Source: Candidatus Tepidiaquacellales bacterium OLB4/UTCHB1 (GTDB lineage Bacteria; Bacteroidota; Ignavibacteria; Tepidaquicellales; Tepidaquicellaceae). From it: a stretch of 64,000 nucleotides of DNA. Shown one piece after another: positions 5,336 to 35,549 of the stretch (the stretch's first letter is position 1; every line of letters starts with the position of its first letter). The notes below the pieces were generated by a model, which did no database searches, had not been told where the DNA came from, and saw only the letters and a list, made by a program, of their open reading frames with translations. Location: contig MWSW01000010.1 in the NCBI GenBank assembly GCA_002050165.1, forward strand, positions 124,001-188,000. Reading direction: 5' to 3'. A program made the position numbers and the translations under genes.

Positions 5336-7765
5336 ATGTCAAATCTGGCGCGAATTCTTTCCCGCAACCCTCGGTTTCACAATAAATATTTCATAGCAAT
5401 ATTTACTATTGCCCTTTCAACTTTATTTCTTGAGTTTACGTTGACGAGGATACTATCTGTTACTTTGTGGTATCATTTTGCATTCATGATTATAAGTGTC
5501 GCCCTTCTCGGTTTCGGAATCAGCGGGGTTACGCTTGCTGTCAGCAAGAAAATCAGGTCTTATGAATCGGATAAGCTGCTTTCAGCATTATCAATTCTCT
5601 ATGGAATAAGCGTTATCGTTTGTTTCATTTTGATGAATAAAATTCCCTTTGATCCGTTTAGTTTATTAACCGATTCGATGCAGTTCTTATACCTCCCGGT
5701 TTATTACGTCCTGATTACAACACCGTTCTTTTTTTCGGGATTAATTATATCATACTTACTATCTACCTATAAAGAGCAGATTCCAAAACTGTATTTCTCT
5801 GACCTTTTGGGTGCGGGAATATCTTGCTTTGCTTTTGTTTTTTTTGTTCCGATGCTTGGTGGTAACGGAGCAATAGTGATAATTGCTTCATTAGGTTTAA
5901 TTACTGCGATAATTTTTTCTGCCGGCAGTTCAAAAATCCTCAGTGTAGCATCTGTTGCCTTGATTATTTTTTCATTGTTACTTCTGTTCAATAAAGAAAC
6001 CACTCTTGCAATAAACTCAACTCCAAACAAGGTTTACGGCAATTTTATTAAATCCCGTCCCGACCTCAAAGTAAGAACTGACTGGAATACGTTTTCAAAA
6101 GTTGACGTTATGTTAGATGATGAGAAGTCCGAAGACGGTTACCCTGTACTGCTTGCAATAATTGATGAAGGTAATGCGACGACGAATATCCCCGCGTTAA
6201 CAGAGTTGCCACCCCCGAGGAAGCCTGCGGATGCATCAAATCTTGCTTATGCTCCGCTCGATTCAGTTGGAAAAGTCTTCATCCTTGGCTCCGCGGGTGG
6301 CGGAGAAATTCTAACCGGATTATATCAGGATGCCGGATGGATTCACGCAGTTGAAATTAACGGTATTTTGAACGAATATCTTACAAACGATCTGCTTTAC
6401 TGGACAGGTCCTTTAGTAAAAAACAACCCGAAGGTAAAGCTGGTTACAGATGACGCACGTTCAGTTATTGGTAGTAAACGAATTGCTTATGATGTGATAA
6501 TTTCTGCTCACACGATTTCGTCATCTGCCGTATCAAGCGGGGCAATGAGCATGGTTGAAAATTACATTCTAACCATTGAAGCAGTTGAGAAATACCTCAA
6601 TCATCTCAGCAATAATGGCGTGTTGTATATTTCACGACCTGAAACACAAATTCCCAGGATTATTACAACATTAAAAAAAGCTCGACTGAACACCAGCATG
6701 GGACTTGAGCAAAGTAAAAATCATTTTATTGTTTTCAGGAGACCACCATCGGAATTTGAAGGTGATAAAAGTTTTCTTGCGGGAGTATTGTACAAAAAAA
6801 ATGGGTTTTCTAAACACGAAGTTATCAGCGTTCTCAATGAAGCTTCTGCCTTAAGCGTTAATATTGAATACGATCCGATTTTAAAACCGGACGGGATTTA
6901 TAAAAATATTATTGAAAGTGACAATGTAGATGAAATTATAGAAGGATTTCCGACTGACATAATGCCGGCTACGGACGACAAACCGTTTTTTGATAATAAT
7001 ATCGGGTTTAGCAGGCTTACGTTCGACGGTATGATAGAATCGTTCTCGCAGGATGAAAAGGGGATTCTGGCATTGAAAGACAGGCCTGTTGCAGAAACAA
7101 CTTTGATTGTCATTCTTATACAAACAATTATCGTTGCCGGGCTTTTTATTTTACTACCGTTGAAAAAATTGAAATCAGAGAAACCTTTTAATACGAAATT
7201 TCTTCTTTACTTCGCCTGCCTTGGGCTTGGTTACATAATGCTTCAGATAAGTATGATACAAAATTTCACGTTGTTTCTTGGACAGCCGGTTTTTACATTG
7301 CTTACAGTTATTTCAACCATGTTGGTTACTTCAGGTTTGGGTAGTATCTTTTCACATAAATTTGTTGCAAAGAACAGAATTAATTTATATATAATATTCG
7401 GATTGATTTTCCTGAGCGCTGTTCTGATAGGTGTACTAAATCCGTTAATCTTCAGAGCAGGGGCAGGGTGGAGTTTGTGGTTAAGAATTGTTGTATCAAT
7501 ATTGGTTATTGCGCCGCCGGGATTTTTTATGGGAATGCCTTTTCCGCTCGGATTATCACTCATTGATGAAGGAGATAAAAAGTTTATTGCTTTTGCTTGG
7601 GGCATCAACGGGTTTTTCTCCGTGATAGGTACGGTTCTGACGATGATACTTGCTATGATTCTGGGTTACAAGGTTGTATTTATTATTTGCGGTGTAATTT
7701 ACTTGTTGGCGTTTTTAGTTATTCAATCAAAATTGAAATCAACAGGAGGATTTAAATTCACATGA
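5336..7765 (+). CDS. polytopic membrane protein with spermidine-synthase-like methyltransferase-fold core
   Basis: About 809 residues. Roughly seven N-terminal membrane segments (residues ~20-220) are followed by a soluble Rossmann-type domain (~230-570) and then about six more segments to the C-terminus. The soluble part has a nucleotide-binding-like loop GSAGGGE (~318-324), an acidic VEIN strand end, and VTDDAR. These resemble spermidine synthase and SAM-dependent methyltransferases. The aminopropyltransferase D-x-x-DP-x-GP loop is replaced by ISAHTISSS, so polyamine synthesis is doubtful. Fused proteins of this architecture are common in environmental bacteria and uncharacterised. The ATG at 5336 is chosen; TTG 5330 is two codons upstream. 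The stop overlaps the pfkA start as ATGA. Confidence 0.75.
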   Translation: MSNLARILSRNPRFHNKYFIAIFTIALSTLFLEFTLTRILSVTLWYHFAFMIISVALLGFGISGVTLAVSKKIRSYESDKLLSALSILYGISVIVCFILMNKIPFDPFSLLTDSMQFLYLPVYYVLITTPFFFSGLIISYLLSTYKEQIPKLYFSDLLGAGISCFAFVFFVPMLGGNGAIVIIASLGLITAIIFSAGSSKILSVASVALIIFSLLLLFNKETTLAINSTPNKVYGNFIKSRPDLKVRTDWNTFSKVDVMLDDEKSEDGYPVLLAIIDEGNATTNIPALTELPPPRKPADASNLAYAPLDSVGKVFILGSAGGGEILTGLYQDAGWIHAVEINGILNEYLTNDLLYWTGPLVKNNPKVKLVTDDARSVIGSKRIAYDVIISAHTISSSAVSSGAMSMVENYILTIEAVEKYLNHLSNNGVLYISRPETQIPRIITTLKKARLNTSMGLEQSKNHFIVFRRPPSEFEGDKSFLAGVLYKKNGFSKHEVISVLNEASALSVNIEYDPILKPDGIYKNIIESDNVDEIIEGFPTDIMPATDDKPFFDNNIGFSRLTFDGMIESFSQDEKGILALKDRPVAETTLIVILIQTIIVAGLFILLPLKKLKSEKPFNTKFLLYFACLGLGYIMLQISMIQNFTLFLGQPVFTLLTVISTMLVTSGLGSIFSHKFVAKNRINLYIIFGLIFLSAVLIGVLNPLIFRAGAGWSLWLRIVVSILVIAPPGFFMGMPFPLGLSLIDEGDKKFIAFAWGINGFFSVIGTVLTMILAMILGYKVVFIICGVIYLLAFLVIQSKLKSTGGFKFT

Positions 7766-32721: not shown

Positions 32722-33384
32722 ATGAGAAATTTTGTAGTTGCTATAGATGGTCCATCGGGGACGGGGAAAAGTACAACCGCGAGAATATTAGCAGATAAGT
32801 TAAAAGTACTTTATATAGACAGTGGCGCGATGTACAGGGCCATTACTTATTTAGTCTTGAAGAAAAAAATAAATCCTACCGATAGTTCAAAAATTATTGA
32901 GTTGACGAAAAGTGCCGACCTGAAACTTGAAGGTGAAAATGTTTACATAAACGGCGAAGATGTTACCAAACAAATCCGGTCGCTGGAGGTAACGAATAGG
33001 GTAAGTGCAATTTCAAAGATAAGGGAAGTACGCGAAATATTGGTAAGTAAGCAACGGGAATTCGCGAACTCTCAAAGCGTGATTATGGACGGAAGGGATA
33101 TTGGAACTGTTGTTTTTCCGAATGCGGATTTTAAATTTTACTTTACGTGTGATATAAAAACCCGGGCTGCGAGACGCCAGCAGGATTTTAGGGATCATGG
33201 GCTGAAAATCCCACTGGATAAAATTAAACTCGAGCTTAAAAAAAGGGACGATATAGACGCAAACCGGAAAGAAAGTCCGCTCAGAAAAGCTAAAGAATCA
33301 ATAGAAGTTGATACTACCAATATGATTATTGAAGAACAAGTTGATTGCCTTTACAAAAAAATCATTTCGCAGTTAGATAATTAA
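32722..33384 (+). CDS. cmk: cytidylate kinase
   Basis: Phosphorylates CMP and dCMP with ATP. The 220 residues have the P-loop IDGPSGTGKSTTAR, the NMP-binding GAMYRAITY, VIMDGRDIGTVVFPNA and the lid region ARRQQDF. It lies 88 nt before rpsA, an adjacency conserved in many bacteria. It is separated from the upstream transketolase-like gene by 134 nt without a clear promoter. Confidence 0.96.
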   Translation: MRNFVVAIDGPSGTGKSTTARILADKLKVLYIDSGAMYRAITYLVLKKKINPTDSSKIIELTKSADLKLEGENVYINGEDVTKQIRSLEVTNRVSAISKIREVREILVSKQREFANSQSVIMDGRDIGTVVFPNADFKFYFTCDIKTRAARRQQDFRDHGLKIPLDKIKLELKKRDDIDANRKESPLRKAKESIEVDTTNMIIEEQVDCLYKKIISQLDN

Positions 33385-33428
33385 ATTTATTCTATTAATT
33401 AAACCTGATATGATACCTCAAATCAAAT

Positions 33429-33466
33429 CAGGAAAAACTTTCCTGCCACACAGGAAAAAAAGGAGG
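33429..33466 (+). promoter_or_regulatory. rpsA leader: alternative hairpins next to a strong ribosome binding site
   Basis: Three 7-nt segments occur in order: CAGGAAA (33429-33435), TTTCCTG (33439-33445) and CAGGAAA (33451-33457). The middle one can pair with either neighbour, giving mutually exclusive hairpins with loops of 3 or 5 nt. Four bases later comes AGGAGG (33461-33466), five bases before the rpsA ATG. It is the strongest Shine-Dalgarno sequence noticed in the window. The layout suggests translational control, perhaps by S1 itself as in other bacteria; that is inference. Confidence 0.5.
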
Positions 33467-33471
33467 AAAAA

Positions 33472-35493
33472 ATGAGTGAATTAGAGACAGAAAATCTTGA
33501 ACAGAAGCCGGTACAAAATACACCTGTAAAAGATAAAGCCAAAAGCGATTCAAATACGAAAAAAACCCTTAAAACTGAAGATTACGACGATGAAGAATTT
33601 GAGAATATGCTCAAGCTTTATGAGAAGACGTTCAATCAGATAAAAGAAAACGAGCTTGTAAAAGGAAAGATTGTTGCCATTAATGGTGAAGATGTTTTAA
33701 TTGACATCGGTTCAAAATCAGACGGGAGGGTATCGGTAAACGAATTTTCCAATCCGGATGAAATTGTAGTAGGTAACGAAATTGAAGTTTTCCTTGAGAA
33801 GATTGAAGATAAAGAAGGCCAGCTCGTACTATCAAAAAAGAAAGCTGACTCAATCAAAATGTGGGATCGGATTGTTGAAATTCATGAAAAGGGTGAAATC
33901 ATCAAAGGCAGATGTGTCAGAAGGATTAAAGGCGGCTTCGTAGTTGACCTCAACGGCCTGACTGCCTTTTTACCAGGTTCACAAATTGATACCAAACCAA
34001 TCAGGGATTATGATGAATACGTCGGAAAAGTTCTTGATTTTAAAGTTATCAAAATAAATAACGCGATTGAGAACATCATTGTTTCGCATAAGATTATTAT
34101 TGAGGAATCAATGGCGGGGCAAAGAAACGAACTGCTCAAGACAATCGAGAAGGGAATGAACCTTGAGGCGGTTGTTAAAGCTATTACAGACTTCGGTGTG
34201 TTCGTTGATCTCGGTGGGCTTGATGGCCTCATTCACATTACTGATCTCTCATGGGGAAGAATTAATCATCCCAGCGATATCGTAAAACTCGACCAAAAGA
34301 TACAAGTACACGTAATTGAATTTGACAAGGAGAAGGAAAGGGTATATCTTGGTTTGAAACAATTGCAGAAGCACCCATGGGAAAATATTAATGAACGGTA
34401 TAAAATTGGCGATAAGGTTTCCGGAAAGGTGGTGTCGTTAACCGATTACGGTGCATTTATTGAGATTGAAAAAGGTATCGAAGGATTAATTCACGTTAGC
34501 GAAATGTCCTGGACGCACCATATAACGAACCCCGGGCAGATTGTAACAATGGGACAACTTGTCGAAGCGCAAATTCTCAATATTGATATTGACGAGAGAA
34601 AGCTATCGCTTGGAATGAAACAACTCACCCCTAATCCATGGCAGAGTTTGCTTGAGAAATTCCCGGTTGGTACAAAACAAAAAGGTAAAGTTTGCAATAT
34701 AACGAGATTTGGGGTTTTTGTTGAACTTGAGGAAGGTGTTGACGGGCTTGTCCATATATCCGATATCTCATGGACTAAGAAAATTCTTGATGTAAATTTA
34801 TTCTTTAAAATGGATCAGGAAGTTGAGGTTGTTATTCTCGGGGTTGATGTTGCAAACCAAAGGATTTCATTGGGAATCAAGCAGCTAATTGAAAACCCGT
34901 GGGAGAAACTTGAAGATCAGTATAAAGCGGGAACAGAGGTTGAGGTTAAAGTTATGAAACCGATTGAACGCGGAATCATTGTGGAAATTGGTGGCGATCT
35001 TGATGCATTTTTACCTGCTTCACAACTCGCTCCGGTCAATATCAGGAACTTCAAGGAACTGTTCAAAGAAGGTGATACGTTCATGTCTGAAGTAATTGAA
35101 TTTGATAAATCGAATAAAAAAATAGTACTCTCAGTAAATGAATACCTGAAAGACAAAACGGAAGATGAAATTACCGCATATCAGGATAAATTTAATTTCA
35201 CTAGGCGGTTTACATTGAAAGATCTTCAGGAAAAGAAAAAGGCATACGAATCAGAACCGATTGATTTCAGGATAGAGGATATTATCGGTGAAGATGATCC
35301 TAACCTTGTTAAGCAGCCTGTTACAATTGAGACTTTTGAAACCAAGGCGATGGTTGAACCGAAGGAAGATAAACCTGAATCTGAAGTGCCTTCCGAAGAA
35401 GTCAAGCAGGAAATGAAACCGGATGACAGTGACGATAAGCAGCAGGATTCAGTTGGTCACGATGATACCGGAGAGGATAAAAAACCTGAGTAA
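33472..35493 (+). CDS. rpsA: 30S ribosomal protein S1
   Basis: 673 residues with an acidic/lysine-rich N-terminal tail, then six S1 (OB-fold) repeats starting near residues 57, 139, 222, 307, 393 and 479. Clear examples are DFGVFVDLGGLDGLIHITDLSW and DYGAFIEIEKGIEGLIHVSEMSW segments. Repeats 1, 2 and 6 are the more divergent, as usual. A long acidic Glu/Asp/Pro-rich tail ends the protein. It binds mRNA and helps initiation on weak ribosome sites. The start is fixed by AGGAGG 5 nt upstream. Confidence 0.97.
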   Translation: MSELETENLEQKPVQNTPVKDKAKSDSNTKKTLKTEDYDDEEFENMLKLYEKTFNQIKENELVKGKIVAINGEDVLIDIGSKSDGRVSVNEFSNPDEIVVGNEIEVFLEKIEDKEGQLVLSKKKADSIKMWDRIVEIHEKGEIIKGRCVRRIKGGFVVDLNGLTAFLPGSQIDTKPIRDYDEYVGKVLDFKVIKINNAIENIIVSHKIIIEESMAGQRNELLKTIEKGMNLEAVVKAITDFGVFVDLGGLDGLIHITDLSWGRINHPSDIVKLDQKIQVHVIEFDKEKERVYLGLKQLQKHPWENINERYKIGDKVSGKVVSLTDYGAFIEIEKGIEGLIHVSEMSWTHHITNPGQIVTMGQLVEAQILNIDIDERKLSLGMKQLTPNPWQSLLEKFPVGTKQKGKVCNITRFGVFVELEEGVDGLVHISDISWTKKILDVNLFFKMDQEVEVVILGVDVANQRISLGIKQLIENPWEKLEDQYKAGTEVEVKVMKPIERGIIVEIGGDLDAFLPASQLAPVNIRNFKELFKEGDTFMSEVIEFDKSNKKIVLSVNEYLKDKTEDEITAYQDKFNFTRRFTLKDLQEKKKAYESEPIDFRIEDIIGEDDPNLVKQPVTIETFETKAMVEPKEDKPESEVPSEEVKQEMKPDDSDDKQQDSVGHDDTGEDKKPE

Positions 35494-35517: not shown

Positions 35518-35549
35518 AACCCCTGTTAAACTGATTAGCAGGGGTTTTT
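35518..35549 (+). terminator. intrinsic terminator after rpsA
   Basis: AACCCCTG (35518-35525) pairs with CAGGGGTT (35539-35546) across a 13-nt loop and runs into TTTTT. It separates rpsA from purC. A TTG-initiated extension of purC from 35553 would start directly after it and is therefore unlikely. Confidence 0.8.

Follow-up and report, generated by a model that had tools for sequence, protein, structure and literature searches.

What the RNA ahead of rpsA does is the question raised by a locus of Candidatus Tepidiaquacellales bacterium OLB4/UTCHB1, where an earlier note had proposed a leader that switches between two hairpins beside a strong Shine-Dalgarno (SD) sequence. The locus lies in a 64,000-nucleotide stretch of contig MWSW01000010.1 (the window). 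On its plus strand, the (d)CMP kinase gene cmk (32722..33384; TIGR00017, 237.8 bits against a cut-off of 135.55) precedes rpsA, encoding the 30S ribosomal protein S1 of 673 amino acids (33472..35493; NF004953, 760.7 bits with a cut-off of 720; TIGR00717, 588 bits with a cut-off of 577). In E. coli, too, rpsA is located after cmk. The 87 nucleotides between the cmk stop (33384) and the rpsA ATG (33472) contain, in order, an AATTAAA block (33397..33403, identified from its sequence), a hairpin P1 immediately 3' of it (33404..33432), an adjoining hairpin P3 (33439..33457), and the SD sequence AGGAGG (33461..33466), 4 nucleotides from P3 and with the ATG 5 nucleotides downstream. P1 consists of CCTGAT (33404-33409) and ATCAGG (33427-33432) plus an inner GAT/ATC pairing, and P3 of TTTCCTG (33439-33445), the loop CCACA and CAGGAAA (33451-33457). 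A terminator-like hairpin of 12 pairs with a T run just past the rpsA stop (35518-35546, plus strand) is likely the end of the cmk-rpsA unit.

The proposed switch was built on three segments, CAGGAAA (33429-33435), TTTCCTG (33439-33445) and CAGGAAA (33451-33457), which are present with loops of 3 and 5 nucleotides just as described; the middle segment would pair with either the left or the right copy, the right-hand hairpin being P3, and the choice would govern access to the SD. The arrangement is real: a 7-mer followed by its reverse complement and then by a second copy of itself, with loops of 3-8 nucleotides, was found once in the 64-kb window, and 60 dinucleotide shuffles of the window together gave one such triple, so that chance seldom produces it. 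In the genome as a whole, the exact pattern is present a single time. The earlier note overlooked that the left CAGG, part of the 3' arm of P1, can also pair with CCTGAT (33404-33409). In the minimum-energy fold of the leader P1 and P3 stand side by side; the two together contribute -13.1 kcal/mol, compared with -7.6 kcal/mol for P3 alone and -6.3 kcal/mol for the left hairpin alone. The computed pair probabilities are 0.987 for P1, 0.798 for P3 and 0.0002 for the left pairing, the last being so low because P1 occupies the left arm; energies and probabilities therefore assign the left CAGGAAA to P1. The fold is of modest strength (z -1.83; 11 of 200 shuffles fold equally well). AGGAGG is computed to be 0.75-0.94 unpaired. 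A pairing of TTTCCT with the AGGAAA that overlaps the SD was set aside: it has a computed probability of 0.145, and no sign of it was seen by eye in relatives.

Leaders were obtained from 27 of the 29 genomes of the family that were searched, the window's included; one genome had no match (G024), another was cut at a contig end (G014), and the start codons of L015 and L024 were reassigned manually. A block of the [A/C/T]TAAA type likewise lies 5' of P1 in the remaining family leaders. The division at 64 nucleotides into 14 long leaders (nine genera) and 13 short ones (six genera), the anchor motifs and the P1 arms were set by eye after viewing the sequences. As the permutations ignore relatedness, each is accompanied by the result of swapping between genera (or families). 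When the 14 nucleotides after the AT block were paired with the rest of the leader, the 27 family leaders scored 18.83 with their own P1 arms and 12.92 with arms from other genera, and 0 of 5000 permutations came up to the mean for own arms; the window's own score was 21.0 and its mean swap 10.5. For P3, the 14 long leaders scored 13.75 with their own arms versus 9.95 when swapped (0/5000); this hairpin was found in ten of them, from seven genera, and is missing from four (genera g4 and g7). Two adjacent hairpins are generally the shape of the long leaders in this family. The earlier claim of a structured rpsA leader next to a strong SD is supported by the covariation of P1 and P3 and by an 8-nucleotide SD match.

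Covariation in both pairings had been suggested as the check on the switch, and it was found for the right helix (0/5000) but not clearly for the left, where the 14 long leaders scored 9.57 with their own arms versus 8.71 when swapped and the observed mean was reached in 354 of 5000 permutations. When the bases on the 3' side were shuffled instead, that mean was reached in 0 of 60 cases, which speaks for the switch, as do the rarity of the triple and the energy of the left helix. Against it, a perfect 7-bp left helix exists in the window alone among the long leaders, no triple with up to three mismatches precedes rpsA in the other genomes among the 29 of the family, the left arm is used by P1, and AGGAGG is covered in neither state. 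The left pairing was rejected as a conserved element on the permutations, the lack of triples in relatives and its probability of 0.0002, and the mutually exclusive pairing is not supported. A choice between hairpins that governs SD access is very improbable; seen in this genome only, the two-state switch is probably not a working part of the leader and probably a by-product of two adjacent hairpins with similar arms.

The 13 short leaders have another shape. Their P1 loop pairs with the stretch just 5' of the ATG, scoring 17.46 with their own sequences versus 12.80 when swapped (0/5000 permutations), and 12 of the 13 form a pseudoknot that ends where the SD would lie; in L018 the loop pairing is no better than the swaps (13.0 versus 13.1). 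The pairing sequences vary, for example TTCCGGTT/AACCGGAA, TTATCC/GGATAA and TCCGGTT/AACCGGA. On a tree of RpsA, where the branch of the window is long and its position uncertain, long and short leaders need three changes (0/500 shuffles as low). A window pseudoknot in which the P1 loop (CCTC) would pair with the SD (GAGG) was rejected: it has 4 bp, and loop-downstream pairing among the 14 long leaders is not above permuted (636/5000). An unanchored pseudoknot search of 84 leaders gave none in the window; most leaders failed to beat their own shuffles, many being far from significant, and five reached 0/100 shuffles (L008, L026, L182, L186 and L189). It was because of these results that the anchored swap tests were made.

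The SD of rpsA matches AAAGGAGGT over 8 nucleotides, whereas the other 55 of 56 window ORFs match over 2-6 nucleotides (the first ATG taken as the start, and two of 58 ORFs that overlap others excluded), which bears out the earlier statement that this is the strongest ribosome site in the window. The 16S tail is GGATTACCTCCTTT, so the anti-SD is intact. Genome-wide, AGGAGGN{3,9}ATG is not enriched (53 sites versus 64 for the reversed pattern) and GGAGGN{4,9}ATG is slightly enriched (193 versus 141); the latter is above its control also in 13 other genomes of the class, in some more clearly, so that the label "SD-free" would overstate the case. The rpsA SD is a strong one in a genome that makes little use of SDs and retains its anti-SD, as rpsU-type feedback would have it. 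Within the family, GGAG or GAGG occupies the SD place in 7 of the 14 long leaders and 2 of the 13 short ones, so a strong SD is not a trait of the family as a whole. The sister family has it in 12 of 13 leaders and the rest of the class in 108 of 115, two counts for which the choice of start favoured an SD (25 of 27 at loci with a single ATG).

Several smaller observations concern SD usage. A second window ORF, at 7762 on the plus strand, has AGGAGG preceding its ATG (a 6-nucleotide match). Only part of the 53 genome sites with AGGAGG and an ATG precede long ORFs (L243 and other loci), and the ORF at one of them encodes what we take to resemble a single-strand DNA-binding protein (MASLNKVILIGRLGRDPE). 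The 3' end of the 16S rRNA of G000 (L260) has the tail GGATTACCTCC; the usual bacterial form is GGATCACCTCC.

Structured rpsA leaders, with a P1/P2 pseudoknot, a P3 hairpin and an SD, are general in the class. Those of families f10 and f22 are H-type pseudoknots in which P1 is crossed by P2, followed by the SD; P1 is mostly GCCATC or GTCATC with GATGGC or GATGAC, and both helices beat permutation in 31 leaders (0/5000 each). In alignment A1, 84.3% of P1 is paired versus 75.5% when shuffled, with a covariation score of 0.373 versus 0.223 (0/500 each) and changes on both sides in seven of eight pairs; the both-side changes (89/500) and further pair types (382/500) were not above shuffles. A covariance model built from this alignment (R1) and run on 294 class genomes gave 61 matches at E < 0.001 in families f10, f22, f12 and f26, one per genome, 31 of them being the model's own sequences. 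All 61 lie directly upstream of rpsA: the gene was downstream of 34 from the first searches, and the other 27 loci, when fetched, all had an rpsA match, a start codon being present in 26 of them and absent from the stretch of L281. In 395 genomes of the phylum, 37 matches at E <= 0.01 were all inside the same class. P1 and P2 again beat permutation (0/5000 each) in 28 newly fetched leaders from 18 genera, of which L300 shows neither well; the model of P1 that found them also carries the P2-region consensus sequence, and they are therefore independent for the P2 pairing only.

A core GATGAC, GATGGC or GGTGGC, motifs that were picked after viewing the leaders, occurs in 34 of 48 leaders from 12 other families, and the exact 6-nucleotide complement of the core lies within 90 nucleotides upstream in 31 of the 34 (six families), compared with 0 of 68 control searches. 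A P3-like hairpin just before the SD is also present in this set (0/3000 permutations). The set omits f10 and f22, loci at which the N-terminus was not found (L046, L150, L153, L161, L164, L174 and L175), loci with a doubtful or cut start (L049, L052, L158, L185, L213, L218, L224 and L225) and L042 of the sister family. The class P1 was tried and rejected in the window's family, where upstream-to-loop pairing is no better than swapped (1795/3000), and R1 has no match in the window genome. With the upstream half of the pseudoknot lacking, the window is therefore placed outside the R1 pseudoknot family; it shares with the rest of the class the gene, the place, the AT block, the P3-like hairpin and the SD. 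To guess from position, the family's P1 may descend from the class P2.

Known systems resemble this leader in part. According to two papers, bS1 binds pseudoknots with high affinity as well as A/U-rich stretches, and represses rpsA in gamma-proteobacteria (PMC10931766; PMC7708055). The rpsA leaders of E. coli and other gamma-proteobacteria are likewise structured, with A/U-rich single strands between hairpins, but their start region is described as being without a canonical SD, the gain of which abolishes repression, whereas the window has AGGAGG 5 nucleotides before the ATG; the same portion of that source describes no pseudoknot for the E. coli form (PMC10931766). The S1 ligands that are pseudoknots (SELEX RNA, rpsO, the tisB standby site, preQ1 and tmRNA) are reported to be H-type (PMC7708055), as are the leaders of the window's relatives. 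Unlike these ligands, the window shows two hairpins and no supported pseudoknot, and its binding of S1 is putative. In SD-poor Bacteroidota, strong SDs are reported to serve bS21 feedback, and in Flavobacterium a strong SD to let bS21-poor ribosomes make bS21; like rpsA here, F. johnsoniae rpsU codes for a component of the ribosome and has a strong SD although its host, also of this phylum, is SD-poor, but it encodes another protein, the ribosomes concerned lack bS21, and no conserved leader structure is mentioned in the text available (PMC9976891).

Lineage-specific, covarying leaders before ribosomal-protein genes, such as those of Eckert and Weinberg (2020) and Rfam, are also similar in kind; here, too, a structured RNA that is kept among relatives stands immediately ahead of a gene for a ribosomal protein. 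The main text of Eckert and Weinberg (2020), so far as available, names rpsA zero times (PMC7247131), as does the main text of Stav (2019). A scan of 35 loci, the window's own included, gave no match at the gathering score of any Rfam 15 family; the weak matches below threshold were rimP, two snoRNA/microRNA families, and L20_leader (26 bits, gathering score 58.7), which overlies the L024 leader on the minus strand. No rpsA leader from these bacteria was found among the open-licence papers searched, and the conserved leader appears to be undescribed.

The best explanation, which in our judgement has an even chance of being right, is that 33397-33471 is a translation-initiation leader of rpsA, made of P1, P3, A-rich single-strand joins and a canonical SD directly 3', which controls S1 synthesis in translation. 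The gene, its SD and helices kept by covariation are there; from them we infer S1 as the ligand, repression as its effect, and use of the SD. A folded leader joined to a strong SD suggests a combination in which free S1 holds the leader and S1-poor ribosomes use the SD: free S1 would bind the structured, A/U-rich leader and hinder the 30S subunit, and the SD would let ribosomes short of S1 still initiate on rpsA mRNA. On this reading it is a new, lineage-specific rpsA leader that controls translation, probably through S1. The modest fold, the unanchored search with no window pseudoknot and with most leaders not beating their shuffles, the two A1 measures that were not above shuffles, and a strong SD that is not family-wide stand against it, and by analogy with E. 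coli, where a canonical SD abolishes autorepression, its opposite layout would also count against control by S1. More tentatively, the class may have its own S1 regulon switch, a pseudoknotted or tandem-hairpin leader gripped by free S1 before a rare strong SD. If so, S1-poor ribosomes would favour S1 mRNA, the mirror image of the SD-less rpsA of E. coli, and the leader would keep its job while its shape varies among a pseudoknot, hairpins and a pseudoknot arm replacing the SD.

The same hairpins might instead hold the A-rich stretches and the SD open as a constitutive translation enhancer or standby site without feedback. S1 is required in large amounts, the SD is computed to be mostly unpaired and A-rich single strands separate the helices, but the long-range covarying pseudoknots of relatives would then be unneeded, as would the pseudoknot arm that takes the position of the SD in the short leaders of the family, and we regard this as rather doubtful. 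Slightly less probable is feedback through ribosome composition, in which initiation at the SD would fall chiefly to ribosomes whose anti-SD is exposed, those without bS21 or S1. The intact anti-SD, the little use of SDs in the genome, the strength of the rpsA site and the frequency of GGAG or GAGG in the sister family and the rest of the class fit such feedback, as does the Flavobacterium precedent, although 11 of the 13 short family leaders have no SD and the portion of the Flavobacterium paper at hand does not name rpsA as a target (PMC9976891). A role for the hairpins in the termination or processing of cmk is scarcely credible: they do lie between cmk and rpsA, with two terminator-like matches on the minus strand, but there is no plus-strand match there, the region has three matches versus 2.0 expected, and a hairpin 4 nucleotides from the SD is kept before rpsA.

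The control of S1 matters here because S1 is the main mRNA-binding ribosomal protein in bacteria not relying on SD pairing; a conserved leader with defined helices and a mutable SD makes S1-level control testable in such bacteria, and the shape changes inside one family are a natural series on the rebuilding of RNA control elements. Two further elements were also seen. A further hairpin, P0, is missing from the window and lies about 10-50 nucleotides upstream of the P1 block in other family leaders (for example L004, L006, L009, L010 and L011); it frequently reads CCCG..CGGGGATT, with the AT block next, and its own arms beat permutation (2/3000). In the sister family f2 (L029-L041), inspection by eye showed GCTCC..GGGGA hairpins, and CGGAG where the SD is expected; to judge from the sequence, GGGGA and the SD are alternative partners with which the CTCC might pair.
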